From: Luteimicrobium album
GTDB taxonomy: Bacteria; Actinomycetota; Actinomycetes; Actinomycetales; Cellulomonadaceae
Reading direction: 5' to 3'
Length of the DNA stretch: 64,000 nt
NCBI RefSeq assembly: GCF_030161555.1
Contig: NZ_BSUK01000001.1
Span: 2,046,001-2,110,000 of the forward strand
Below the pieces are notes generated by a model that made no database searches, was not told the DNA's origin, and saw nothing but the letters and a program-made list of their open reading frames with translations. This document shows positions 7,863-23,643 of the stretch, piece by piece; within the stretch, counting starts at the first letter, position 1; every line of letters begins with the position of its first letter. Both the position numbers and the translations under genes were made by a program.

Positions 7863-7968
7863 GGTCATGAGTTCCAGCCCTTCGGCCCCGGCCGGCTGGA
7901 CGGCAACCCCGCTCCGCGGCGGGGTGCCCCGGGTGATGACCCGGCCCGTTTCCGCGACGGGCAACCAG
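7863..7968 (+). promoter_or_regulatory. SAM-IV-type riboswitch (copy 1)
   Basis: The sequence follows the actinobacterial SAM-IV aptamer: P1 GGTCA (7863-7867) pairing with TGACC (7937-7941), the conserved GAGTTCCAGC, a GGCTGGACGGCAACC internal loop and GGGGTGCCCCGGGTGATGACC at the 3' side of the core. A 3' hairpin (GCCCG...CGGGC) then an AACC segment, as expected for the extra 3' helix of this class, follows. Downstream a second hairpin (GGCCCACGGGCC) abuts the AGGAGG of the leader ORF, which could form the expression platform. SAM binding is expected to shut off the downstream sulfur genes. The same element recurs at 20880. Confidence 0.85.
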
Positions 7969-7998
7969 CGCGAGGCCCACGGGCCAGGAGGAACACGA

Positions 7999-8109
7999 AT
8001 GACGACCCACGACCAGCCCGGCGAGCACCCGGTCCGGCGCTCATCCCGCTCTGCCGTGCCGCATAGCCGGCGCCGCGTCTGTCGTCCGGCACGTCCGACG
8101 ACGCGCTAG
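7999..8109 (+). CDS. Short leader ORF after SAM-IV riboswitch 1
   Basis: A 36-codon ORF with a strong ribosome-binding site (AGGAGG, 7 bases before ATG). It is Arg-rich, with one cysteine near the end (RRRVCRPARPTTR). It matches no protein family I recognise. Its position, immediately behind the riboswitch and about 120 bases before the first enzyme gene, and its RBS resemble the cysteine-rich leader peptides found before actinobacterial sulfur genes. An overlapping frame encodes ALIPLCRAA, closer to the usual LCRxA-type leader ending, and a single missing base could link ATG 7999 to it. Treat as a putative attenuator peptide. Confidence 0.5.
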   Translation: MTTHDQPGEHPVRRSSRSAVPHSRRRVCRPARPTTR

Positions 8110-10788: not shown

Positions 10789-11759
10789 ATGAGCACCGAC
10801 ACCTTGAGCGGCGCCGAGGGCACGACGGGCGCCGTCGACCCTGCCGTCGAGCGCTGGCGGGCCTGGCGTGCGGAGCGCGCCGCCGGCCTCAAGGCTCCCC
10901 GCGGCGTCCTGTCCCTCACGTCGCACCACTGGCTCGGCCGCGAACCGGCGCCGGTCCCCGGCGTCCCGGGCCTGTGGTGGGCCGATGACGACGGCGCGCA
11001 CGTCCGCGTGGACGGTGACGCCCGGTCCGACGACGACACCCCCGCCGTCCTGCTCGACGCGGACACGCTCCGCCCGGTCGAGGACCCCGGACCGTCGTCG
11101 TCGCGGAGGCCGGCTCGGTCGTGCCGTTCCTGGTCGACGGCCCGGGTGGTGCGACTCCCGACGCGGCGGGAGCGGCTCTCGTCGGCGTGGAGCTGGCGCT
11201 GCGCACCGGCCGCTACCTCCTGCGCACGCGCGACCCGAAGGCGCCGGCGCTCGCGGCGTTCGTCGCGGCCGGCGAGGAGGCCGCCGTCCCGGCGTTCGCG
11301 TTCGACCCCGCCCAGGTGCGCGACCTCCCGGTCCGCTGGTACGCCGAGCCCCGCGCGGACGTCGTCGACGGCGCCAAGCCGGGCCTCGTGCACCACGTGG
11401 CGGTGGTCGGGGAGGTCGACCTGGACGGTACGACCCTCCGGCTCGTCGCCGGCCACCACGGTGGGGTCACGCTGTCGTTCACGGACCGTGCGCCCGGGAC
11501 CCCGGGGTGGCGGGCCGTGCACGTCCCGGCCGTCGACGTCGAGGCGTCGCGCGCGGCCGCGGCCTCGAGCGGTGGTCCGGACGTCGACGGCGGGCCCGAG
11601 CGCACGCTCCGAGTCGACCTCAACCGGGCAACCGCCTACCCGTCGCACTTCAACGACCACGGCACGTGCCCGCGACCCCTCGCGGGCAACGATCTCCCGT
11701 TCGCCGTCCAGGCCGGGGAGAAGGACCCCTCCGTGCGTCAGCCGGCTCCCCACGCATGA
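10789..11759 (+). CDS. DUF1684 domain protein (frameshifted near 11085-11090)
   Basis: Corrected length is about 323 residues. N-terminal part: RWRAWRAERAAGLKAPRGVL, then LTSHHWLGREPAPVPGVPGL. After one base is restored in the CCCCGG run at 11085-11090, the frame continues (TVVVAEAGSVVPFLVDG...) to the diagnostic DUF1684 C-terminus: RTLRVDLNRATAYP, then HGTCPRPLAGNDLPFAVQAGEKDP. The family has no established biochemical function as far as I know. Here it lies between LLM monooxygenases and an ABC transporter, and its TGA overlaps the permease ATG by 4 bases. This tightly links it to transport or processing of the same, probably sulfur-containing, substrate. Confidence 0.8.
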
Positions 11760-12823
11760 CGGGGGCGCAGGCGCGGTACGTCGTCGGACGGATCGCTCAG
11801 GCCCTCGTCATCGTGGTGCTCACCTACACGCTGGTCTTCGCGATCCTCTACCTGCTCCCGGGGGATCCCATCGCTTCGGCCGTCAACGACCCGCAGAACC
11901 CGCTCCCCCAGGACCAGGTGCACGTCGTCCTGGCCTACTACAACCTCGACCGCAGCGGGCTGGAGCAGTACCTGATCGCGGCAGGGCGCGCGCTGCACGG
12001 AGACTTCGGCTACTCGCTGACGACGGGGCAGCCGGTCGCGCGGATGTTCGGCCAGGCGCTCCCGCACACGGCGTCGATCGCGGCGCTGGCCTTCCTGGTC
12101 GCTGTCGTCGTCGCCTTCGGGATCTCCGTCCTGGCCACCCACGGCCCCACCCGAGGCGTGCGCGCGATCGCCCGCGCGGTGCCGTCCGTGACGCTGTCCG
12201 TACCCAGCTTCCTTCTCGCCCTGGTCGTCGTGCAGGTCTTCGCGTTCCGGCTCGGCTGGTTCTCACCGGTCAGGGACTCGGGCTTCAAGGCGGTTCTCTG
12301 GCCGGCGCTCGTGCTCGGGGTCGTGGTGGCGCCGCACGTCACCCAGGTGTTCGTGCAGGGCGTCGACAGGACCCAGCAGATGCCGTTCGTCCTCGTGCTG
12401 CGCGCGCAGGGGCGTTCGGGCTACGCGATCTTCCTCCGTGTGGTCAAGAACGCCGTCCTGCCGACGCTGACCCTGTTCTCGCTGACGGCCGGTGAGCTCC
12501 TCGCCGGTTCCGTGATCGTCGAGGTCATCTTCAACAAGAACGGGATCGGGCAGCTCACCCAGGACGCCGTCCGCGGCCAGGACACGCCGGTGATCCTGCT
12601 CGTGGTGCTGTTCGTGTCGACGGTCTTCGTCACCATCAACCTGCTCACCGACCTCGTGTACCCGTGGATCGACCCGCGCATCTCGCTGCGCCAGCGCACC
12701 CGTGACCGGCGCGGGAGCGGACGGGGTGGGCCGCAGCCTGCGTCCGGGGACGTGACGTCGTCCTCGGGCGAGCGGGAAGACGAGCGGAAGATGGCATCGG
12801 CAGGTGTCGACCATGGTGCTTGA
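11756..12823 (+). CDS. ABC transporter permease, dipeptide/nickel (DppB) type
   Basis: 355 residues. First helix IAQALVIVVLTYTLVFAILYLLPGDP, the periplasmic-loop signature GDFGYSLTTGQPV, several further transmembrane helices, and the EAA-like cytoplasmic loop (QMPFVLVLRAQGRSGYAIF) contacting the ATPase. The C-terminus has the typical ITINLLTDLVYPWIDPR-like ending, followed by a 45-residue hydrophilic tail of low complexity that is longer than usual. Forms the inner-membrane channel with the permease at 12804, powered by the ATPase at 13652 and fed by the lipoprotein at 15295. Starts inside the DUF1684 stop. Confidence 0.9.
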   Translation: MTGAQARYVVGRIAQALVIVVLTYTLVFAILYLLPGDPIASAVNDPQNPLPQDQVHVVLAYYNLDRSGLEQYLIAAGRALHGDFGYSLTTGQPVARMFGQALPHTASIAALAFLVAVVVAFGISVLATHGPTRGVRAIARAVPSVTLSVPSFLLALVVVQVFAFRLGWFSPVRDSGFKAVLWPALVLGVVVAPHVTQVFVQGVDRTQQMPFVLVLRAQGRSGYAIFLRVVKNAVLPTLTLFSLTAGELLAGSVIVEVIFNKNGIGQLTQDAVRGQDTPVILLVVLFVSTVFVTINLLTDLVYPWIDPRISLRQRTRDRRGSGRGGPQPASGDVTSSSGEREDERKMASAGVDHGA

Positions 12824-13655
12824 CGAGACCGCCGGAACCGTGCGCCGTACGCACCGGCTCAGGAACGCCGACCCGCTGCTCGTCCTGGCGGTCCTCGTGC
12901 TCGCCGTGATCGCGGTCTTCGTGGTCGCGCCCGGCGCCGTCAGCCCGCACGACCCGCTCAGCGCGGTGGGCCAGTCGCTCCAGCCGCCCTCGGGGCGGTT
13001 CCTCTTCGGCACGGACTATCTCGGTCGCGACATCTTCTCGCGTGTCGTCTACGGCACGCGGACGACACTGCTCGGCTCGCTCGTGGCGGTCACGTGCGGA
13101 CTCGTCGTCGGCAGCGTCCTCGGACTGGTCGCGGCCTACTTCGGCGGGGTCGTCGACGTGGTCGTCGGACGGCTCGTCGACGTGCTGCTGTCGATCCCCG
13201 GGCTGCTGCTGTCCATGGTGATCGTCGTGGCGCTCGGCTTCGGGACACTCAACGCTGCCGTCGCCGTCGGTGCGTCCTCGGTCGCGCTGTTCGCGCGGCT
13301 CATGCGTTCCGAGGTGCTCACCGTCCGTGAGCTCGGTTTCGTGGAGTCGTCCCGCCACATCGGGGCGAGCACCACCAGGATCCTGCTGCGCCACATCCTG
13401 CCCAACTCGTACTCGTCGGTGCTCTCGCTCGTCGTCCTCCAGTTCGGTGCTTCGATCCTCTGGATCTCCTCCCTGAGCTTCCTGGGGTACGGCGCGCCGC
13501 CGCCGCAGCCGGAGTGGGGCCTCCTGATCGCCGAGGGGCGCGACTACATCGTGTCGTCCCCGTGGCTGGTGGTACTCCCGGGTGCGGTGATCGTCGCGAT
13601 GGTCCTGTCGATCACGAAGGTGTCACGGACCGTGCGACGGAGGTACGAGTCATGA
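12804..13655 (+). CDS. ABC transporter permease, dipeptide/nickel (DppC) type
   Basis: 283 residues (GTG 12804; ATG 12813 is an equally possible start). Contains the DppC N-terminal segment and the marker FLFGTDYLGRDIFSRVVYGTR, multiple transmembrane segments, the EAA-loop VESSRHIGASTTRILLRHILPN, and the C-terminal [18 protein letters not shown] typical of DppC/OppC proteins. Overlaps the previous gene by 20 bases and the ATPase start by 4. Second channel half of the first SAM-IV-controlled importer. Confidence 0.9.
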   Translation: MSTMVLDETAGTVRRTHRLRNADPLLVLAVLVLAVIAVFVVAPGAVSPHDPLSAVGQSLQPPSGRFLFGTDYLGRDIFSRVVYGTRTTLLGSLVAVTCGLVVGSVLGLVAAYFGGVVDVVVGRLVDVLLSIPGLLLSMVIVVALGFGTLNAAVAVGASSVALFARLMRSEVLTVRELGFVESSRHIGASTTRILLRHILPNSYSSVLSLVVLQFGASILWISSLSFLGYGAPPPQPEWGLLIAEGRDYIVSSPWLVVLPGAVIVAMVLSITKVSRTVRRRYES

Positions 13656-15298
13656 GCGGCACCGCCCGCCCGCCCGCGATCGACGTGCGCGGGCTCTCCC
13701 TGAGCTATCGCGACCGACGGACCCACGAGCGCCGCCGCGTGCTCGACGGCGTCGACCTCACCCTCGAGGCCGGGACGACACACGCGCTGGTCGGGCAGTC
13801 GGGATCGGGCAAGAGCACGCTCGCGCTGGCCGTCACCGGTCTGCTTCCCGGCAACGCGGCGGTCGAGGCGGGGACGATCGCGCTCCAGGGGAAGGTCCCG
13901 TCGCGGCGCGAGCTCGTCGTGGCACGCCGGCACGTCCTCGGCTTCGTGCCGCAGGATCCGCTGAGCTCGCTGGACCCGCTGCAGCGGGTCGGTCGTCAGC
14001 TCGCCTCGCTGCTGCGGTCGCGCGACCGCAGCCTGTCGCGCGCTGCGGCGAAGCAGCGTGCCGTCGAACTGCTGGACCAGGTCGAGATCGAGCGGTCGGC
14101 CGAGAAATACGACAGCTACCCGCACCAGCTCTCGGGTGGGCAGCTGCAGCGGGTCCTCATCGCCATGGCGATCTCCGGGGACCCTGACGTCCTCATCGCC
14201 GACGAGCCGACCTCGGCGCTCGACGTCACGGTCCAGAAGGTCATCCTCGACCTCCTGCTCCGGCTGCGTTCGAGCCTCGGGCTCGCGATGCTCCTGATCA
14301 CGCACGACCTCGCGCTGGCGGGCGAGCGCAGCGACGCGATCACCGTGCTCGAGCACGGTGTCGTCCGCGACTCGGGCCCGACCACGGACGTCCTCGCAGC
14401 GCCCTCGGCCGCGTACACCCGAAGGCTGCTCGCGGACGTTCCCGCCCTCGCGCCGGACCGGTTCCGGGAGACGGGGGCTTCCTCGCCCGTCTGCGAACGG
14501 GCTGGGGACGACGACCCGATCCTGACCGTGCGCGGGCTGACGAAGAGCTATCACGACGCGGCCGGAGGCCCGAACCGGGTGCTGCGAGGGGTCGACCTCA
14601 CGGTCCGGCGAGGGAGCACGCACGCCATCGTCGGGGAGTCCGGATCCGGCAAGACGACGATCGCCCGCATCCTCGCGAGCCTCACTCCCTACGACACCGG
14701 CGAGGTCCGGTTCGACGGCGCGCCGGCGGCAGGCGGCGGAATCCCGATCGCAGGGCCCCGGCGGCTCCAGCTGATCTCCCAGAACCCGCTCGCCGTGCTC
14801 GACCCGAGGATGACGGTCCGGCAGCTCCTGGAGGAGCCACTCCTCATCCACACCGAGCTGACGAGACGCGAGCGTCGGGCCGAGGTCACGGCGCTGCTCG
14901 ACCGCCTCGACCTGCCGGCCGAACTGTCGGGACGGCGGCCCAAGGAGCTCTCCGGAGGGCAGCGCCAGCGTGTCGCCGTCGGCCGCGCGATCGTGCTCGC
15001 GCCCGAGGTCCTGGTCCTCGACGAGCCGACGTCTGCGCTCGACGTGAGCGTCCAGGCGAACATCGTCGAGCTTCTGATGGACCTCAAGGCCCGGCACGGG
15101 CTCACCTACGTCTTCATCTCGCACGACCTCGGGCTGGTACGCCAGGTCTCCGACACGGTCACGGTCCTGTCCCGAGGGCAGGTCGTCGAGTCGGGTCTCA
15201 CGCACGAGGTACTGGCCCGGCCCACCCATCACTACACCCGGACGCTGGTCGACTCGATCCCCGGGCTGCCCCACACGACGAGGAAGGTACTTCGATGA
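13652..15298 (+). CDS. Dual ABC transporter ATP-binding protein (DppD-DppF fusion)
   Basis: 548 residues holding two complete nucleotide-binding domains. Domain 1: Walker A GQSGSGKS (about 48-55), signature LSGGQLQRV, Walker [13 protein letters not shown], His-loop LLITHDLAL. Domain 2: Walker [10 protein letters not shown] (about 328-336), signature LSGGQRQRV, Walker [13 protein letters not shown], His-loop FISHDLGLV. Each domain ends in an oligopeptide-transporter C-terminal HHYTRTLVDSIPGLP-like motif. Energises import through the 11756/12804 permeases. Starts in the stop of the DppC gene and overlaps the binding-protein start by 4 bases. Confidence 0.92.
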   Translation: MSGTARPPAIDVRGLSLSYRDRRTHERRRVLDGVDLTLEAGTTHALVGQSGSGKSTLALAVTGLLPGNAAVEAGTIALQGKVPSRRELVVARRHVLGFVPQDPLSSLDPLQRVGRQLASLLRSRDRSLSRAAAKQRAVELLDQVEIERSAEKYDSYPHQLSGGQLQRVLIAMAISGDPDVLIADEPTSALDVTVQKVILDLLLRLRSSLGLAMLLITHDLALAGERSDAITVLEHGVVRDSGPTTDVLAAPSAAYTRRLLADVPALAPDRFRETGASSPVCERAGDDDPILTVRGLTKSYHDAAGGPNRVLRGVDLTVRRGSTHAIVGESGSGKTTIARILASLTPYDTGEVRFDGAPAAGGGIPIAGPRRLQLISQNPLAVLDPRMTVRQLLEEPLLIHTELTRRERRAEVTALLDRLDLPAELSGRRPKELSGGQRQRVAVGRAIVLAPEVLVLDEPTSALDVSVQANIVELLMDLKARHGLTYVFISHDLGLVRQVSDTVTVLSRGQVVESGLTHEVLARPTHHYTRTLVDSIPGLPHTTRKVLR

Positions 15299-16924
15299 GG
15301 AGAGCACGCAAGCGGTTCGGGTCTCTGGCAGCGGCGGGAGCGCTGCTGGCGCTGCTCGTCAGCGCGTGCAGCGGAGGGTCGTCGGGTGCTCCCGCCTCCG
15401 GGACGGGGAGCCCGTCCGCGGGGGAACCTCGTCTACCTCGAGGCGGAGAATTGGTGCACCTTCAGCCCGAACCTCATCGGCTGCTGGCAGAACAACTCCG
15501 TCGCCAACAACGCCCTCGACCGGCTCGTCTACGAGAACCCCGACACGCTCGAGTACGAGCCCTGGCTCGCCAAGAGCTTCTCCGTCTCGAAGGACGGGCT
15601 GACCTACACCTTCGAGCTGCGATCGGACGTGAAGTTCAGCGACGGGACCCCGCTCACCGCGGACGTCGTCAAGCAGAACCTGGTCTACCGTGACCAGGGC
15701 GACTCCGCGAAGGGCATCCCACGCAAGGCGGGCTGGCCCGAGGGCGCGACGTACACGGCCGACGACGCCACGAACACCGTGACCGTCAAGCTCAAGGAGC
15801 CGTACGCGCCGTTCCTCAGCCTCGTGGCCAACTTCGCCAGCGGCATCCTCGCCCCGAAGTTCTTCACGCTCACGGCCGACCAGCAGGCGGACCCGAGCAA
15901 CTGGATCGGCACCGGACCGTTCCACGTCACCCAGTACGTGGCCAACGAGAAGCTGGTGCTCACCCGGACCAAGGGCTACGCCTGGGCTCCTCGCTCGTCC
16001 TATGTCAAGAACCAGGGCGAGGCGTACCTCGACACCGTCACCGAGCTCTCCGTCCCGGAGGACGCCGTGCGGCTCGGCACTCTCGAGTCCGGTCAGGCCG
16101 ACGTCCTGCGCTACGTGCAGCCGAGCGAGGAGTCCCGGCTCGCGAGCAAGGGATACCAGGTCCTGGCCTTCCGCACCCCCAGCTTCTCGCCGTCCTGGTA
16201 CTTCCAGCTGACGGCCCCGTACGTCGACGACATCAGGGTCCGTCGGGCGATCCTGCACGCGATCGACCGGCAGAAGATCGTCGACCAGCTCTACTCGTCC
16301 AGCTGGAACGCGTCGACCGGGCTCTTCAACAAGGTCGCACGTGGGTACACCGACCAGTCGAAGCTCATCGCGTACGAGCCCGACACGTCCGACAAGCTGC
16401 TCGACGAGGCCGGCTGGACCTCGAGGAACGCCGACGGCTACCGCACGAAGGACGGCAAGGAGCTCACCATCTCCACGTACGTCGACGTCTACGACCACAC
16501 GGCCAAGGCCAAGTACCAGGCGGTCCAGCAGCAGCTCAAGCAGATCGGCGTCCACCTCGACGTCAAGCAGGTCGACTACTCGACCTACCCGACGGCGATC
16601 ACCGACCCGTCGGTCGGCCTGATCCGCGGCGGTGGCTCCAACAACGAGCCCGGGCTCGCGCTGGCCCAGAACGTCTGGGCGGACGTCTTCAAGCTCGACG
16701 GGTCCGACAAGAAGCTCGTCGAGCTGACGACGGCCGAGACCCAGGCGACGACGGACGCGGCACGCACGAAGGCGCTCGACGCGCTGCAGGACTACGTCGT
16801 CGAGCAGGCGTACTACGTGCCGATCCTGGAAGACACCCAGACGTTCGTCGCCCAGTCGTACGTGCACGGAGTGGTGAGCTCGCGCGCGCTGCCGTCGTTC
16901 GCCAGCGCCTGGCTGTCGAAATGA
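15295..16924 (+). CDS. ABC transporter substrate-binding lipoprotein, SBP family 5 (frameshifted at 15420-15424)
   Basis: The N-terminus is a lipoprotein signal with the lipobox VSAC (Cys25) followed by a Gly/Ser linker. The frame breaks in the G5 run at 15420-15424. The mature part (NLVYLEAENWCTFSPN... to 16924) is in the +1 frame relative to the signal, so either two bases are missing or one is extra. Restored length is about 543 residues. Family-5 markers: PWLAKSFSVSKDGLTYTFEL, VKFSDGTPLTADVVKQNL, WIGTGPFHVTQYV, VRRAILHAIDRQKIV, LLDEAGWTSRNADGYRTKDG. The ligand is not deducible; regulation suggests an organosulfur compound. Its stop overlaps an upstream ATG of the RraA gene. Confidence 0.85.
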
Positions 16925-16980
16925 CGGCGACCGCCCGCGCTCCGTACTCGCTCACCCGAGAACCGAAGGACGAATCCACC

Positions 16981-17589
16981 ATGAGCTCCACCGCCAGCAT
17001 CCCGTCCGACGACGTGCTCGCACGTCTGCGATCCGTCTCGCCCTCGACGCTCGGTCACCTGCGCGACCACGGCCTCATCGCCGGTCTGGACCCGCTGTTC
17101 AGGCCGATCCGCTTCGCGGGCGTCGCGCGGACCGTCGTCGGCGGCGAGTACGACTCCCCAGGCCTGAACCGGGTGATCGACGAGGGCGACGAGCGCACCG
17201 TGATCGTGATCAGTCGTCCGGCGGGGACCCGTCGCACGACGTACGGCGGCGTCGTCGGCACCCGGGCACGTGCCCGAGGGATCGCGGGCCTCGTCATCGA
17301 CGGGCCGGTCACCGACTCCGAGCAGCTCGTCGAGCTGGGCACGCCGATCTACCACCGTGGCGTGACTCCGCTCGTCGGACGCAGCACGGACGGCCTCGAG
17401 ATCGTCGACGTCCCGGTCGTCGTCGGCGGCGTGGTGGTGAACCCCGGCGACGTGCTGTTCGGCGACAACGACGGCGTCGCCGTGCTCTCGCCCTACGAGG
17501 TCGAGCCCGTGCTGGAGGTGCTGGAGGACATGGAGCGTCGCGAGGTCGGGCTCCGGGCGTCGCTCCTCGCGCAGGGGGCGGACCGATGA
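16981..17589 (+). CDS. RraA-family protein (HMG/oxaloacetate aldolase-like), Arg of the active-site motif replaced
   Basis: 202 residues from ATG 16981, preceded by GAAGGACG; an earlier in-frame ATG at 16921 overlaps the binding-protein stop and is an alternative. The RraA/HMG-aldolase swivelling fold is recognisable: TLGHLRDHGLIAGLDPLF, GGVVGTRARARGIAGLVIDG, TPIYHRGVTPLVG, VVVNPGDVLFGDNDGVAVL. Members are metal-dependent aldolases/oxaloacetate decarboxylases or the RNase E inhibitor. The usual active-site RD pair in DGxVRD reads DGPVTD here, so the catalytic Arg is lost and classical aldolase activity is doubtful. It lies between an ABC importer and an NtaA-type LLM, overlapping the latter by 4 bases, so it acts on the same pathway; a decarboxylase/aldolase step is inference. 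Confidence 0.82.
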   Translation: MSSTASIPSDDVLARLRSVSPSTLGHLRDHGLIAGLDPLFRPIRFAGVARTVVGGEYDSPGLNRVIDEGDERTVIVISRPAGTRRTTYGGVVGTRARARGIAGLVIDGPVTDSEQLVELGTPIYHRGVTPLVGRSTDGLEIVDVPVVVGGVVVNPGDVLFGDNDGVAVLSPYEVEPVLEVLEDMERREVGLRASLLAQGADR

Positions 17590-18896
17590 GCACCCCCGAG
17601 CGCCGGCTCCACCTCGTGCAGTTCATCGGCGGGGCCCAGGGGGTGTACGACTCCTGGGCCGACCCCACCGAGCGGACCCTCGCGTACTACCAGCGGGTCG
17701 CCCAGCACGCCGAGAAGGAGGGGCTCCTCTCGCTCTTCATCGCGGACAACTCGATGCTGCTCCGCGACGGTGACCTCAGCACGCTAGGCGCCCTGGAGCC
17801 GATCACGCTCTTCTCGGCGCTGGCCGCGGTGACCGAGCGGATCGGGCTCATCGCGACGGTCTCGACGACCTACTGGGAGCCGTACAACCTGGCACGGCTC
17901 GTCGCGACCCTCGACCAACTGAGCGACGGCCGAGCCGGCTGGAACGCCGTGACGTCGTTCCGTGGCGAGCAGAACTTCGGCTTCGGCGACATCCCCGACC
18001 CGGAGACGCGCTACGCGCGGGCGACGGAGTTCGTCGAGGTCGTGCTCAAGCTCTGGGACAGCTGGTCGCCTGCCGCGATCAAGACCGACACAGGGGGCGC
18101 ACGTGCCTACTCGGACGGCGCGCAGATCCGCGACATCGAGCACGTGGGACCTCACTTCTCGGTCCGTGGCGCACTCGACGTCCCCCGCTCCAAGCAGGGC
18201 CGGCCGCTGCTCGCCCAGGCCGGAGCCTCGGACCTCGGCCGCCGGCTCGGGGCGACGTACGCCGACCTGATCTACACGGCTGAACCCACCTGGGACAGCG
18301 CGTCCGAGTTCGTGCGGGGGCTGCGGTCCCACGCGGCCGCGGCGGGACGGCCCAACGGTCTGCCGGCCATCCTCACGGGTCTGAACTCCACCTTCGCGAG
18401 CACGACCGAGGAAGGCGAGCGGCTGAAGTGGCAGAAGGTCGAGGCCTACGGGGTGGAGCGTGCTGTCCAGACCCTCTCCCGGCACCTCGGGGACGCCGAC
18501 CTGACCGGGATCGACCTCGACGACGCCATCCCCGCAGAACGGCTTCCCGACGTGGCGTCCGTCCGGCGACGGCAAGGGCGCTTCGGCGTCCTGGCGCACC
18601 TCGCCACCGAGGAGCGGCGACCACTGCGGGAGATGCTCTTCGCAGGCGTGCACTGGGGCCACTGGACGGAGGTCGGAGATCCCGGGCAGATCGCCGACCG
18701 GGTGCAGGCCCGGTACGAGGCGCACCTGACGGACGCGATCACGGTCGGCACTCCGCAGGACGAGACGCAGCGCGACGTCCTGTGGCAGGAGTTCGTCCCC
18801 GAGCTCGTGCGGCGCGGGCTGTTCGAGCCGGGATACCGCGGGCGGACGCTCCGCGAGAACCTGTTCGGTGCGCGGACGGACGCGGAGGGCTCGTGA
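17586..18896 (+). CDS. LLM-class FMN-dependent monooxygenase, NtaA/DmoA family
   Basis: 436 residues, intact. Family blocks: RRLHLVQFIGGAQGVYDSW, LLSLFIADNSMLLRDGDLS, ERIGLIATVSTTYWEPYNLA, DGRAGWNAVTSFRGEQNFGF, YARATEFVEVVLKLWDSW, SVRGALDVPRSKQGRPLLAQ. The fold is the FMNH2-dependent TIM barrel of the nitrilotriacetate/dimethylsulfide monooxygenase subfamily, needing a separate flavin reductase. Starts in the RraA stop and ends in the GTG of a GNAT gene, so monooxygenase and acetyltransferase are translationally coupled. That pairing is also seen in Bacillus S-(2-succino)cysteine salvage operons. Confidence 0.88.
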   Translation: MSTPERRLHLVQFIGGAQGVYDSWADPTERTLAYYQRVAQHAEKEGLLSLFIADNSMLLRDGDLSTLGALEPITLFSALAAVTERIGLIATVSTTYWEPYNLARLVATLDQLSDGRAGWNAVTSFRGEQNFGFGDIPDPETRYARATEFVEVVLKLWDSWSPAAIKTDTGGARAYSDGAQIRDIEHVGPHFSVRGALDVPRSKQGRPLLAQAGASDLGRRLGATYADLIYTAEPTWDSASEFVRGLRSHAAAAGRPNGLPAILTGLNSTFASTTEEGERLKWQKVEAYGVERAVQTLSRHLGDADLTGIDLDDAIPAERLPDVASVRRRQGRFGVLAHLATEERRPLREMLFAGVHWGHWTEVGDPGQIADRVQARYEAHLTDAITVGTPQDETQRDVLWQEFVPELVRRGLFEPGYRGRTLRENLFGARTDAEGS

Positions 18897-19477
18897 CGTC
18901 GGCCACGGTCCGAGCCGGTGACGTGCGGCTGGTCACGGTCGATTGGGACGACCCCCGGGCGGTCGCGCTGCGGGCGGCGATGGACGCCGAGGTCGGACCG
19001 CGCTACGCGGACCGCCGGCGTCCGCGAGAGGCCGCGCGCTACGAGTCGGTGCCAGGCACGCAGGTCGACCCCGCGGAGCTCGTCGCAACGCTGCTGGCCC
19101 TCGATGCCGGCGGCGAGGCGGTCGGGCACGCGGCGCTGCGGCGGCTCGACGGCGAGCTCGAGGTCAAGCGGGTCTTCGTCGTGCCCTCGGCACGCGGTAC
19201 CGGGGTCGCCGTGCAGATCATGCTGGCCCTCGAGGACGTGGCCAGGCAGTGGGGCGCCGCGCGTGTCGTCCTGCAGACCGGCACCCGGCAGCCGGAGGCC
19301 GTCGGGCTCTACACCAAGCTCGGCTACAGGCCGATCCCGGTCTACCCGCCCTACACCGCGCTGCCCCCGTCTCTCTGCTTTGCGAAGTCGCTCTCGGGGG
19401 CGGCTTCGGAGGAATCCACGACCCACGGGTCTCCCCGGGCGGGAGACATCGAAGACCGACAGGAGAAGGTCTCATGA
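18893..19477 (+). CDS. GNAT-family N-acetyltransferase
   Basis: 194 residues from a GTG overlapping the LLM stop. The acetyl-CoA-binding motif A is VKRVFVVPSARGTGVAVQIM (the R/Q-x-x-G-x-G/A segment), followed by QWGAARVVLQTGTRQPEAVGLY and LGYRPIPVYPPY. The C-terminal 25 residues are hydrophilic and probably disordered. N-acetylation of a cysteine-derived substrate before oxidative cleavage would fit the coupled LLM gene; this is inferred from B. subtilis SnaA/YxeK logic, not from sequence. The next gene's ATG (19474) overlaps its stop. Confidence 0.8.
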   Translation: MTSATVRAGDVRLVTVDWDDPRAVALRAAMDAEVGPRYADRRRPREAARYESVPGTQVDPAELVATLLALDAGGEAVGHAALRRLDGELEVKRVFVVPSARGTGVAVQIMLALEDVARQWGAARVVLQTGTRQPEAVGLYTKLGYRPIPVYPPYTALPPSLCFAKSLSGAASEESTTHGSPRAGDIEDRQEKVS

Positions 19478-20691
19478 CCACGGTGAACGACGTCGTTGCG
19501 GACCCCGACGCCTTGTTGTCGGGCCGCGGCCGGCCCGGCCCGGCCGGGGTCGGGACCTTCGGACCACCCCCACGGGTCTGCCCGAGGGGGCCGTGCTGCT
19601 CACCGGGGGTCGCCCGCGCGTGAAGCGCTCCCCGTGAGCGAGCTGCGGAACGCCTTCGCGACGGTGCTGGCCGACCCCGAGGCAGGCCCGCTGGCTCTCG
19701 CGTACTCGGGCGGCCCAGGAGACCCGCGGTTGCGCGAGCTGATCGCGGCGCGCGAGGGTGTCGACCCCGCACGGGTCGTCATCACCAACGGTGGCTTGCA
19801 CGGCATCAGCCTGGTGCTGGAGTCGCTCGTCGACGAGGGCGACGTCGTCGCGGTCGAGAGCCCGACCTACCCGCTGACGCTGCGCGTTCTGGGGCGCTCG
19901 GCGCGCGGTTCCTGCCAGTGCGGGTGGACGAGGAGGGTCTGGACACGGACCATCTCGCGTCCCTGCTCGAGGAGGGTGCGAGGCCCAAGGTCGTCTACGT
20001 GATCCCCGACTTCCAGAACCCGACGGGTGCGACCCTGTCCGCGGCGCGACGGGCGCATCTCGCCGCGTTGTCGGAGCGCTATGGCTTCGTGGTGCTGGCC
20101 GACGACGCGTACCGCCCCCTGCGGTTCGAGGGGGAAGAACCCGGCGGCCTGCCGGGCGACGGCGGCAACCTCGTCAGGGTCTCGACGTTCGCCAAGACCC
20201 TCGGCCCGGGGCTGCGGCTCGGCTGGGCGGTGCTCCCGGAGTGGTTGGTGCCCGCGGTCGTGCGTATCCGCCAGAACCAGGACCAGCACTCCTCGCTCCT
20301 GACTCAGCGCGCCGTCGCGGAGCTCCTCGGCCGGCCCGGGGCCTACGACGGGATCCTCGACAGGGCACGAAGCATCTACCGAGCTCGGTCGACCGCGTTG
20401 CGCCGGGCGCTCGAGGGCCTGGCGCCCGACAGGATCCGGCTCGAGCCCGTGCGCGGCGGGATCTTCGCGTGGGCGCGGATCCTCGACGACGAGGTCGACG
20501 TCGTCCGGCTGCGTCGCGTCGCCAACGAGCTGGGCACGGACTTCTCGGTGGGGACGTACTTCGACCCGTCGGGGTCCGGTGCTTTCGCGGACCGTGTCCG
20601 GCTGGGCTTCAGCGGCCACGACGAGGCGCGGTTGCGCGACGCGGCGACGCGGCTCTCGCAGGCGCTGGGCGACCCTCGTTCGCGAGGCTGA
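19474..20691 (+). CDS. PLP-dependent aminotransferase, class I/II (three frameshifts)
   Basis: About 406 residues after adding one base at each of three points: GG 19561-19562, GGGGG 19605-19609 and GG 19900-19901. The pieces read continuously: LPEGAVLLTGG, SELRNAFATVLADPEAGPLA, GGPGDPRLRELIAAREGVDP, VVITNGGLHGISLVLESL, YVIPDFQNPTGATLSAARRA (the family Asn/Pro-Gly region), LADDAYRPLRFEGEEP (Asp for the pyridine nitrogen), and STFAKTLGPGLRLGW with the PLP lysine. The C-terminal half is closest to the 2-aminoadipate/MocR-type aminotransferases. It ends module 1 and is the likely entry or exit transamination step for an amino-acid substrate. Followed by about 150 bases before the next promoter. 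Confidence 0.8.
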
Positions 20692-20842
20692 CCGACCGGC
20701 GCGGCGACGAGGGACCTCGCGTCCCGGACACCGACGAGGGCTCACCGCAGGCGCGGTGGGCCCTCGTCGACGTCCGGGGAAAGTCTGCGACGCGTCGCCG
20801 GAGGACCCAATCGTCCACCAGGTGAGCAATGCCAGGGGACCG

Positions 20843-20871
20843 TTGACGCGGCACCCTCGCCCGCCTAGCGT
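20843..20871 (+). promoter_or_regulatory. Promoter of sulfur module 2
   Basis: TTGACG at 20843-20848, 17-base spacer, TAGCGT at 20866-20871. The expected start of transcription is about 20878, two bases before riboswitch 2. Same geometry as the module 1 promoter. Confidence 0.7.
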
Positions 20872-20879
20872 CCCGGCCA

Positions 20880-20985
20880 GGTCAAGAGTTCCAGCCCTGC
20901 GGCCCCGGCCGGCTGGACGGCAACCCCGTGCGCTTCGGGGTGCCCCGGGTGATGACCCGGCTCCCGTCGTCCGCGGGAGCAACCT
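20880..20985 (+). promoter_or_regulatory. SAM-IV-type riboswitch (copy 2)
   Basis: Same conserved blocks as copy 1: GGTCA at 20880-20884, GAGTTCCAGCC, GGCTGGACGGCAACCCC, a variable stem, and GGGGTGCCCCGGGTGATGACC. A 3' hairpin GCTCCCG...CGGGAGC and AACC follow. The variable stem loops differ from copy 1 while paired positions are kept, which supports a functional RNA rather than a recent duplication. A GGGCCC/GGGCC hairpin again lies next to the leader ORF ribosome-binding site. It should repress module 2 when SAM is abundant. Confidence 0.85.
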
Positions 20986-21021
20986 GCGCGGGCCCCTGCG
21001 GGCCAGAAGGAGACACGAACG

Positions 21022-21105
21022 ATGCGTCGCCGCACCGCCGCCATGACCCCGGTCCGTGTCGTCCTCGTGTGTTGTCGCGCGTCAGGGTGTCGCTCCCACG
21101 CCTGA
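21022..21105 (+). CDS. Cysteine-containing leader peptide after SAM-IV riboswitch 2
   Basis: A 27-residue ORF: an Arg-rich start (MRRRT) and a C-terminal half with three cysteines (VLVCCRASGCRSHA). AGAAGGAG lies upstream. This resembles the short Arg/Cys leader peptides that precede sulfur-assimilation genes in actinobacteria and act in cysteine-responsive attenuation. It sits at the same place relative to the riboswitch as the ORF at 7999. The 200 bases between it and the next gene are C-rich and contain several weak hairpins; I could not single out one attenuator structure. Confidence 0.6.
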   Translation: MRRRTAAMTPVRVVLVCCRASGCRSHA

Positions 21106-21304
21106 GCCTGCTCGCTCGCTCCTCGCTGCGGGCGGCCCTTTGCGCCCGACCTTTCCCCCAAAGCCCGGCCCTCGTGCGCCTCCGTGCACCCGCGGCCATC
21201 CCACAGGAGAGCCTTATGCCTCGTTCGTCCTCGTGCTGGACGCGCTCGTGCGTGAGCCGAACCGAAGTCACGGTCCGTCGAGATCACGGTGGGGCGTCCC
21301 TACG

Positions 21305-21919
21305 ATGACCGCACTCGCCTCCGGGCTCGAGGCCCGCAGCGTCCGTCTCGACGACCCGCTCGCGAGCACCCTGCTCGACGAGCTGTTCGTGGAGTACCGC
21401 GACCGGTACGCCGACCTGCTCGGTGTCGAGGGACTCGACGCCGAGCAGCTCGCCCGCTACGTCGCCGAGTTCCGCACCGAGGGGCTCGAGGACTTCCTCC
21501 CGCCGGGTGGCGACCTCGTCCTCCTCCTGGCAGGCGGCGCGCCCGTCGCCGGGGGTGCGTTCCGGCGGCGCACCGAGCCCGAGCTGGGGGAGCCCGCGCG
21601 TCGGGCACCGGGCCCGGGGACGGGCGAGCCCACCCACGACGACGACGGCACACCCCTCGTCGCGACCGCCGAGCTCAAGCGGATCTGGACCCACTCGGCG
21701 CACCGGCGCCGGGGCCTGGCCCGCCAGGTCCTCGCGGAGCTCGAGCGCCGCGCCGCCGAGCGCGGTTACGTCCGCGTCTACCTGACCACCGGGCCGCGGC
21801 AGCCCGAGGCCGTCGGCCTCTACGTCGCGTCCGGCTACACCCCGCTGTTCGACCCCGTCGCGGTCTCCCACGAGGCCCCCGACGTCCTGTCACCCAGACC
21901 GTTCGACAAGTGGCTCTGA
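21305..21919 (+). CDS. GNAT-family N-acetyltransferase
   Basis: 204 residues from ATG 21305. Motif A: AELKRIWTHSAHRRRGLARQ, then VLAELERRAAERGYVRVYLT, TGPRQPEAVGLYVASGY. The N-terminal half has the acidic helices common in GNATs that bind small amino substrates, with a charged insert (EPTHDDDG) before motif A. First enzyme gene behind riboswitch 2. It carries the same RQPEAVGLY motif as the GNAT at 18893, so the two may handle related substrates. Acetylation of a sulfur amino-acid derivative is inferred from context. Confidence 0.8.
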   Translation: MTALASGLEARSVRLDDPLASTLLDELFVEYRDRYADLLGVEGLDAEQLARYVAEFRTEGLEDFLPPGGDLVLLLAGGAPVAGGAFRRRTEPELGEPARRAPGPGTGEPTHDDDGTPLVATAELKRIWTHSAHRRRGLARQVLAELERRAAERGYVRVYLTTGPRQPEAVGLYVASGYTPLFDPVAVSHEAPDVLSPRPFDKWL

Positions 21920-21960: not shown

Positions 21961-23643
21961 ATGTCCGCCACCTCCGCGAGATCGCACGGCCCCCTGCGCC
22001 GTCGTCCGGCCGCGCTCGCCGCGACCGCCCTGTCCGTCTCCGCCGCGCTGGTGCTGGCCGCCTGCTCCGGCGGCGCCGACGCCGGCACGAAGGCCTCCGA
22101 CTCGGCCACGCCGCAGGCCGGCGGCACCCTGACCTGGGGCGTCGAGACCGAGCCCGTCACCCTCAACCCACAGCTCAACGGGCAGGACAAGACCAAGCTG
22201 CTGCTGCGCAACGCGTACGAGCAGCTCCTGGCCCGCCAGGACGACGGCACGTACGTGCCGTGGCTCGCGAGCGCCTACAAGGTCTCCGACGACGAGCTGA
22301 CCTACACCTTCACCCTGCGTGACGACGTGACGTTCTGGGACGGGGAGAAGCTCGACGCGGCCGCCGTCGTCACGAACCTGAAGCAGCAGCTCAACCCGAA
22401 GTACAACCCCTACGGGGCGGCGGGCCCGCTGTCGCACCTGAAGTCCGCGACCGCCACGGACGACCGCACGGTCACCCTCGTGCTCAAGGAGAAGTACGCG
22501 CCGTTCCTCGACTACGTCGGGAGCCTGCCGCTGATCTCGCCGAAGTCCTACGCCAAGGCCGACGTCCAGGCCGGCGGACCCGACATCGCGGGCACGGGGC
22601 CGTTCGTCCTGACCAAGTACGTCAAGGGCCAGGAGCTCGACTTCACGAAGAACAAGGACTACGCCTGGGCGCCCGCGACCGCGAAGCACCAGGGCGCCGC
22701 GTACCTCGACGCGCTCACCTACCGGTTCCTGCCCGAGTCGTCGGTCCGTCTCGGGGCCCTGCAGTCGGGCCAGGTCGACGTGATCGAGGGCGTGCCGGGG
22801 ACGCAGGCCGCGCAGTTCCAGAAGAACGGCGCGTTCACCTACCAGACCGCGCTCAACACGGGCACGCCGTACTCGCTGTACTTCAACACGCTGTCCGGCC
22901 CGACGTCGGACGTGAAGGTCCGCGAGGCGTTCCGGGACGCCGTCGACCTCGACGCCGTCCTGAAGTCGGTCTACGCGGGGCAGCGCACCCGGGCGTGGAG
23001 CGCCGTCTCGCCCGAGGACCCGAGCTTCTACGACAAGAGCCTCGAGGGCACGTACGGCAACGACAAGGACGCCGCGAACAAGCTCCTCGACGAGGCCGGC
23101 TGGACGGGCCGCGACTCCGACGGCTACCGCACCAAGGACGGCAAGCGCCTCACGATCACCGACTACCAGTCGCAGCCGTACGTCCGCGACCAGCGCGACA
23201 CGCTCCTGCAGGCCATCCAGGCGCAGGTCAAGCAGAACGCTGGCATCGACTTCGACGTCCAGGTCGTCGACTCGGGCGTGTCGGACGAGCACCGGGCCAA
23301 GAACGACTACGGCACGTACGACAACTCGAACACCAACCCCGACGGCGTCGACATCGAGTACCACTGGTTGCCGGCGGACAAGGGCGGGTTCATCAACCTG
23401 TCCAACGTGACCGACCCACAGCTCACCACCTGGCTCACCGCGGCCCAGCAGACGACCGACACCGCGAAGCGGGCCGAGCAGTACGACGCGCTCCAGCAGT
23501 ACGTCATCAAGGAGAAGGCCTACAGCTTCCCGCTGTACGAGCCGGAGGACCAGATCGCGGCGTCGTCGAAGGTCCACGGCACCGGCTTCCGGACGTACTA
23601 CCAGCTCCCCGAGGGCGCCTACGACGTCTGGCTGAGCAAGTGA
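21961..23643 (+). CDS. ABC transporter substrate-binding lipoprotein, SBP family 5
   Basis: 560 residues, intact. Lipoprotein signal with lipobox LAAC (Cys35) and a Ser/Gly/Asp linker. Family-5 blocks: GGTLTWGVETEPVTLNPQ, YVPWLASAYKVSDDELTY, DDVTFWDGEKLDAAAVV, DIAGTGPFVLTKYVKGQ, VREAFRDAVDLDAVLKSV, LLDEAGWTGRDSDGYRTKDG. Captures the substrate outside the membrane for the 23640/24667/25569 importer. Its TGA overlaps the GTG of the permease. Only about half of its residues would be expected to match the module 1 binding protein, so a different ligand is likely. Confidence 0.9.
   Translation: MSATSARSHGPLRRRPAALAATALSVSAALVLAACSGGADAGTKASDSATPQAGGTLTWGVETEPVTLNPQLNGQDKTKLLLRNAYEQLLARQDDGTYVPWLASAYKVSDDELTYTFTLRDDVTFWDGEKLDAAAVVTNLKQQLNPKYNPYGAAGPLSHLKSATATDDRTVTLVLKEKYAPFLDYVGSLPLISPKSYAKADVQAGGPDIAGTGPFVLTKYVKGQELDFTKNKDYAWAPATAKHQGAAYLDALTYRFLPESSVRLGALQSGQVDVIEGVPGTQAAQFQKNGAFTYQTALNTGTPYSLYFNTLSGPTSDVKVREAFRDAVDLDAVLKSVYAGQRTRAWSAVSPEDPSFYDKSLEGTYGNDKDAANKLLDEAGWTGRDSDGYRTKDGKRLTITDYQSQPYVRDQRDTLLQAIQAQVKQNAGIDFDVQVVDSGVSDEHRAKNDYGTYDNSNTNPDGVDIEYHWLPADKGGFINLSNVTDPQLTTWLTAAQQTTDTAKRAEQYDALQQYVIKEKAYSFPLYEPEDQIAASSKVHGTGFRTYYQLPEGAYDVWLSK

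Follow-up and report, generated by a model that had tools for sequence, protein, structure and literature searches.

SAM-IV riboswitches and Cys leader peptides are both familiar elements before actinobacterial sulfur genes. The leader peptides (PMC1262725; NF042934, NF042933, NF042936) are encoded by short ORFs with Cys codons near the stop, and those of mycobacteria are leaderless according to Canestrari et al. 2020, as cited in PMC13236596. The cysteine genes of M. smegmatis have been described as under translation attenuation (PMC13236596), and Rho was already proposed for mycobacterial cys leaders by Seliverstov et al. (PMC1262725). Riboswitches that directly control a small upstream ORF are known from M. 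tuberculosis, in the arrangements B12 riboswitch-uPPE2-ppe2 (PMC11260477) and Mbox-uORF2-pe20 (PMC12810186), where the signal is relayed by Rho-dependent termination or re-initiation. The closest precedent for two inputs is the Salmonella mgtA leader with mgtL (PMC6460261), which combines ion sensing and an amino-acid-codon leader peptide in one transcript.

The locus described here has something in common with each of these systems. It resembles other SAM-IV leaders (RF00634) in the sequence and structure of the aptamer, its sulfur-gene context, its actinobacterial host and a start codon about 30-45 nt behind the aptamer. Unlike in the usual case, this first start codon belongs to a leader ORF with Cys codons and not to the enzyme gene. 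It shares with the actinobacterial Cys leader peptides a short ORF, Cys codons near the stop, a sulfur operon and the lack of an obvious intrinsic terminator, but in contrast to the leaderless mycobacterial ORFs this one is led by a Shine-Dalgarno sequence (SD) and lies behind a SAM riboswitch. As in the M. tuberculosis cases, a riboswitch would directly control a small upstream ORF; for those, amino-acid sensing has not been reported and a second metabolite input has not been claimed (PMC11260477; PMC12810186). Whereas mgtL is a Pro-sensing ORF embedded in a Mg2+-sensing leader, the modular SAM aptamer of our locus is placed in series with a Cys ORF, and each of the two also occurs without the other elsewhere. 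SAM-IV, Cys leader peptides and riboswitch-controlled upstream ORFs are each known, and what appears to be new is the stacking of SAM-IV and a Cys leader ORF in series. The original prediction knew of no description of such stacking, and we found no SAM-IV or other SAM riboswitch coupled serially to a leader ORF with Cys codons in the searchable openly licensed papers, a set that did not include the key mycobacterial study of Cys leaders, Canestrari et al. 2020.

The window is a 64,000-nucleotide stretch of the Luteimicrobium album genome (contig NZ_BSUK01000001.1, positions 2,046,001 to 2,110,000). An Rfam scan found two SAM-IV riboswitches in it, both far over the gathering score of 38. The second of these and the leader ORF behind it comprise the following features.

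20880..20990, + strand: SAM-IV riboswitch aptamer 2 (Rfam match 20880-20982, plus a candidate second pseudoknot)
20991..21004, + strand: small G+C hairpin in the gap between aptamer and ribosome-binding site (fold)
21005..21012, + strand: SD of the leader ORF, AGAAGGAG, nine nt 5' of the ATG (sequence)
21022..21105, + strand: leader ORF (uORF) MRRRTAAMTPVRVVLVCCRASGCRSHA, 27 codons, ATG start (sequence; conserved arrangement)
21070..21075, + strand: tandem rare Cys codons TGT TGT of the leader ORF, 21070-21072 and 21073-21075 (codon listing)
21088-21090, + strand: third Cys codon of the leader ORF, TGT (codon listing)

The original prediction described a SAM riboswitch followed by a 27-codon ORF with its own ribosome-binding site and three Cys codons, and both elements are as it had them. 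The SD-led ORF behind riboswitch 1, the C-rich spacer and a second short ORF, all described below, had escaped it. Riboswitch 2 matches the Rfam covariance model of SAM-IV (RF00634) with 70.6 bits (E 1.7e-10, against the gathering score of 38). The alignment leaves the final model positions 108-116 unaligned, and a candidate second pseudoknot may join the P3 loop to the 3' tail through U20929-C20933 (UGCGC) and G20986-G20990 (GCGCG). SAM binding and repression by this riboswitch are putative, as inferred from its family membership. The leader ORF starts 40 nt 3' of the Rfam match, and hairpins similar to the one in the gap between aptamer and ribosome-binding site lie at the same place in many relatives. 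All three of its Cys codons are TGT, against 60 TGC to 8 TGT in the neighbouring genes of the window.

Taken singly, the window ORF is weak evidence and only suggestive. Of its dinucleotide shuffles, 2.9% have at least three Cys, including one or more in the last five codons, together with a CC pair; the share drops to 0.5% if three TGT are also required. Its peptide matches nothing in Pfam or NCBIfam, including NF042934, NF042933 and NF042936, although several stacked relatives match NCBIfam leader models. The evidential weight therefore rests on the relatives.

For this comparison, 62 named loci were chosen solely by the first enzyme of the operon, a luciferase-like monooxygenase, and the leader was not a criterion; SAM-IV loci were gathered separately from 99 relatives. 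Among the 60 monooxygenase loci scanned with Rfam, 40 carry a SAM-IV less than 600 nt upstream on the same strand. Behind the aptamer of 39 of these 40, an SD-led ORF starts at a distance of 13-57 nt, most commonly 30 nt. The sole exception (L226) has its enzyme start about 80 nt behind the aptamer. Cys occurs in every one of the 39 ORFs, at least twice in 35, and within the last five codons in 37. We reduced them to 22 representatives less than 75% alike and compared these with 2000 shuffles. A Cys in the last five codons is found in 20 of the 22 representatives (shuffled mean 3.0) and a CC pair in 12 (1.1 shuffled), and the Cys fraction is 0.089 (0.029 shuffled). No shuffle matched the values of the representatives for any of the three features. 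Chance ORFs are thereby ruled out for the class, the window ORF singly standing at p ~0.03 to 0.005.

The uORF starts at a median of 31 nt behind the aptamer, compared to 36 nt for 116 genes that start directly behind SAM-IV. It thus occupies the spot where SAM-IV normally offers the start codon of the main gene. Judging from these genomes, the stacking of SAM-IV and Cys ORF is widespread and no curiosity of one genome. The expectation that the ORF and its Cys codons would be conserved in relatives holds in part: the arrangement recurs in the 39 of 40 SAM-IV monooxygenase leaders, with the same spacing and the same rare Cys codon, whereas the exact ORF is unique to this genome, a search via its GNAT gene in relatives having found no ortholog. 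The wider proposal of control by both SAM and cysteine gains good support from this comparative genomics, with sensing itself predicted from family membership and codons.

TGT is rare in the genomes concerned, with 22 of 427 Cys codons (5%) in 243 neighbouring genes (22 TGT to 405 TGC). The representative leader ORFs have 50 TGT to 14 TGC (50/64, 78%; Fisher p 5e-38 versus the neighbouring genes), and their last six codons have 32 TGT to 2 TGC. Among the other two-fold NNY codons of the same ORFs (Asp, Asn, His, Phe, Tyr), 0 of 46 end in T, and the GC3 of non-Cys codons is 0.92. Rare codons at sensing residues are expected of an amino-acid attenuator tuned to charged tRNA. The peptides are otherwise highly unlike in sequence and range from 17 to 50 codons, and indels between the ORFs of close relatives are whole codons, a pattern that speaks for sensing by the ribosome rather than for a functional peptide. 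Within groups of close relatives, the non-synonymous to synonymous ratio lies close to one (0.8 and 1.4 for the two largest groups), and the conservation of Cys columns exceeds that of the others only modestly (79 versus 74%, 84 versus 72%).

Alternatively, the Cys codons could arise incidentally from a conserved RNA motif (UGUUGUCGC) with a pairing partner elsewhere in the leader or with a factor that binds it. Consistent with this, UGUCG hardly varies at the last Cys across the monooxygenase set. Yet the motif is always in frame with the ATG across ORFs of such different length with whole-codon indels, Cys runs at other loci are encoded by different words (MCMCM, CCC, TGC), and the downstream leader holds no complement to UGUUGUCGC beyond that found in shuffles. 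We consider an RNA motif very unlikely to account for the codons.

Folds of the leaders revealed no conserved pairing of the uORF SD or of the Cys codons, and no consistent partner that could serve as a single anti-SD for the uORF; the SAM-controlled switch and any anti-attenuator structure are accordingly hypothetical. Folds of the free leader, which are blind to pseudoknots, often pair the uORF SD with the aptamer, contrary to simple expectation. No stable or SD-masking structure emerged between uORF and gene in the folds, the fold z of the spacer averaging -0.8 with no common pairing. Every representative has a spacer rich in C and poor in G behind the uORF: its C minus G is 0.21, compared with 0.02 immediately before the aptamer and 0.09 within the enzyme coding sequence. 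The window has such a spacer too, followed by the second operon.

21106..21200, + strand: spacer rich in C (0.49) and poor in G (0.26), a candidate region for Rho loading (base composition)
21216..21308, + strand: second short ORF MPRSSSCWTRSCVSRTEVTVRRDHGGASLR, with its SD AGGAG at 21205-21209 and its stop overlapping the GNAT start as ATGA
21305..21919, + strand: GNAT-family N-acetyltransferase, first enzyme of operon 2 (family search)
21973..23643, + strand: ABC transporter substrate-binding protein, SBP_bac_5 (family search)

Permeases, an ATPase, luciferase-like monooxygenases and a rhodanese are encoded 3' of the SBP_bac_5 gene. With a peptide-type ABC transporter, several luciferase-like monooxygenases, a rhodanese and GNAT acetyltransferases, the operons have a probable role in organosulfur uptake and breakdown, supplying cysteine and SAM. 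Since they probably feed both pools, both inputs would be metabolically sensible.

We put at roughly 0.75 the probability that the uORF truly serves as a Cys-sensing leader under SAM-IV control. SAM-IV is thought to repress the initiation of its genes upon SAM binding. When SAM is plentiful, the aptamer would fold and, if it behaves as its family does, block initiation of uORF translation. When SAM is low, the uORF would be translated, and the rare UGU Cys codons near its stop would gauge charged Cys-tRNA. With ample cysteine the ribosome would finish the uORF, and with scarce cysteine it would stall near the stop, as the codon signature suggests. Without a parked ribosome, the C-rich spacer would be exposed and the operon off. 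Rho would load on the exposed spacer, and a ribosome stalled by the stop codon would prevent loading, as at E. coli tnaC. Rho appears to be the most likely option for the final step, at about even odds; another is masking of the next, downstream ribosome-binding site. In either case, the operon for organosulfur uptake and breakdown would be expressed only if SAM and cysteine were both short.

A simpler relay has to be weighed against this, in which the uORF merely passes the on/off state of the riboswitch to the operon, whether by excluding Rho or through re-initiation, and the Cys codons sense nothing. The uORF does stand in the place of the first gene, and the B12 riboswitch and ppe2 of M. 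tuberculosis set a precedent (PMC11260477). Where the second short ORF overlaps GNAT as ATGA, translational coupling, and with it a re-initiation relay, may occur in the window; re-initiation via this ORF may be likened to the B12-riboswitch uORF of ppe2 (PMC11260477). Having its own SD between uORF and GNAT, the second short ORF could also uncouple the one from the other. Counter to the relay, which would have no use for Cys codons, a Cys close to the stop and a TGT bias confined to Cys recur in otherwise unrelated peptides. In addition, Cys ORFs precede the same enzyme at seven loci that lack SAM-IV even at permissive thresholds (L190, L195, L207, L208, L215, L217, L218). SAM-IV and Cys ORF are thus separable modules joined in series, and we regard a pure relay as unlikely.

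If a Cys-sensing uORF under SAM-IV control is indeed at work, a riboswitch whose regulated ORF itself senses an amino acid would constitute a natural in-series two-input gate, and many SAM-IV riboswitches would have a second layer of control. It would give a possible reason why some SAM-IV aptamers stand hundreds of bases from their gene. The confinement of rare TGT to sensing codons would, moreover, provide a codon signature for finding other leader ORFs.

The first riboswitch of the window bears on the origin of this leader.

7863..7973, + strand: SAM-IV riboswitch 1, with the architecture of riboswitch 2 (Rfam, 79.2 bits, gathering 38)
7999..8109, + strand: leader ORF behind riboswitch 1, MTTHDQPGEHPVRRSSRSAVPHSRRRVCRPARPTTR, 36 codons, SD AGGAGG (sequence)

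This leader ORF has a single Cys codon, again TGT, which is conserved in Luteimicrobium xylanilyticum (strain HY-24, G002), one of two congeners in the genomes searched, the other being L. subarcticum (G001). Leader 2 closely copies leader 1 from the aptamer through the SD. The ORF bodies have diverged past recognition, with TGT Cys codons in both. Leader 2 thus seems to be a diverged copy of leader 1. The GNAT gene of relatives lies inside the first operon, directly behind another gene and without a leader of its own, from which it follows that leader 2 was probably duplicated into place at a split of this operon. Alternatively, leader 2 may have decayed after duplication into a SAM-IV copy followed by an ORF of chance origin, with its two-way regulation lost. 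The close copying over aptamer and SD, the leaderless GNAT of relatives and a single-locus shuffle p of just ~0.03 to 0.005 would all suit decay. However, the leader has its SD, its three TGT codons and a Cys no more than five codons from the stop, and it fits the conserved class; we hold decay to be very unlikely, the least probable of the alternatives.

Other features of this region and genome may be noted. A segment of about 9 kb (window ~11700-20880; permeases, ABC ATPases, SBP, monooxygenase, aminotransferase) parts the leader-1 genes from GNAT, unlike in relatives, where GNAT comes right after the preceding gene. The monooxygenase ORF behind leader 1 (window 8229 onward) has 255 codons versus 383 in L. 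xylanilyticum, which may reflect frame errors in the assembly (genome completeness is listed as 82%). The third SAM-IV of the genome (G000:C1:2007115) lies directly 5' of a Cys-desulfurase-like gene, with no short ORF between. A search elsewhere in the same genome for stand-alone leaders (NF042934; CCR-stop pattern) gave none that was convincing.

Across all fetched SAM-IV loci, an automatic tally finds the Cys ORF in some gene contexts and not in others. Of 78 Cys desulfurase genes, 67 begin immediately after SAM-IV, and the other 11 all lack a Cys ORF. Among monooxygenase leaders of recognised type with a gap, the same tally finds a Cys ORF in 14 of 14. A similar Cys ORF separates SAM-IV from a cysD operon (L108, ...RRHVDLQRVSSATCCC), from a cystine-transporter-like gene (L075) and from ABC-transporter genes (L282, L283, L303, L312). 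The curated cut-off of NF042934 ('putative leader peptide') is exceeded by seven ORFs (L108, L110, L280, L288, L302, L303, L315), and several of those found class-wide also match the Cys-rich leader families NF042933/NF042936, below cut-off. These ORFs span many families, one example outside the family of the window being Geodermatophilus ruber (L212). We consider it likely that this is a class-wide, modular two-input leader of actinobacteria, in which SAM-IV would directly target a Cys (in places Cys plus Met) ORF tuned by rare codons, so that organosulfur, sulfate, cystine and methionine genes would be gated by low SAM together with low cysteine.

Behind some SAM-IV, the leader ORFs mix Met and Cys (MCMCMSTCADRCCQR, MCCCPMPA, MCCARMCCAMM; L036, L078, L164, L168, L175, L179), which suggests joint sensing of Met and Cys. 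Tiny Cys or Cys/Met ORFs lie between SAM-IV and metY-like genes at seven loci (L006, L010, L147, L244, L249, L252, L299), reading MTCRMPF, VTCRMRR, VIERMCR, MCIRRMCCR, MRCCCQ, MRCCPLTRSH and MCCCRSQFAFR. In six genomes of the class (L258, L262, L264, L268, L269, L271), one and the same six-codon ORF with an SD, VSKRMR, follows SAM-IV at 40-58 nt and precedes a Cys-desulfurase-like gene by about 100-170 nt; it has no Cys and one Met codon. At L237 and L239 (1181-1625), divergent genes are served by two back-to-back SAM-IV elements, which lie on opposite strands some 230 nt apart.
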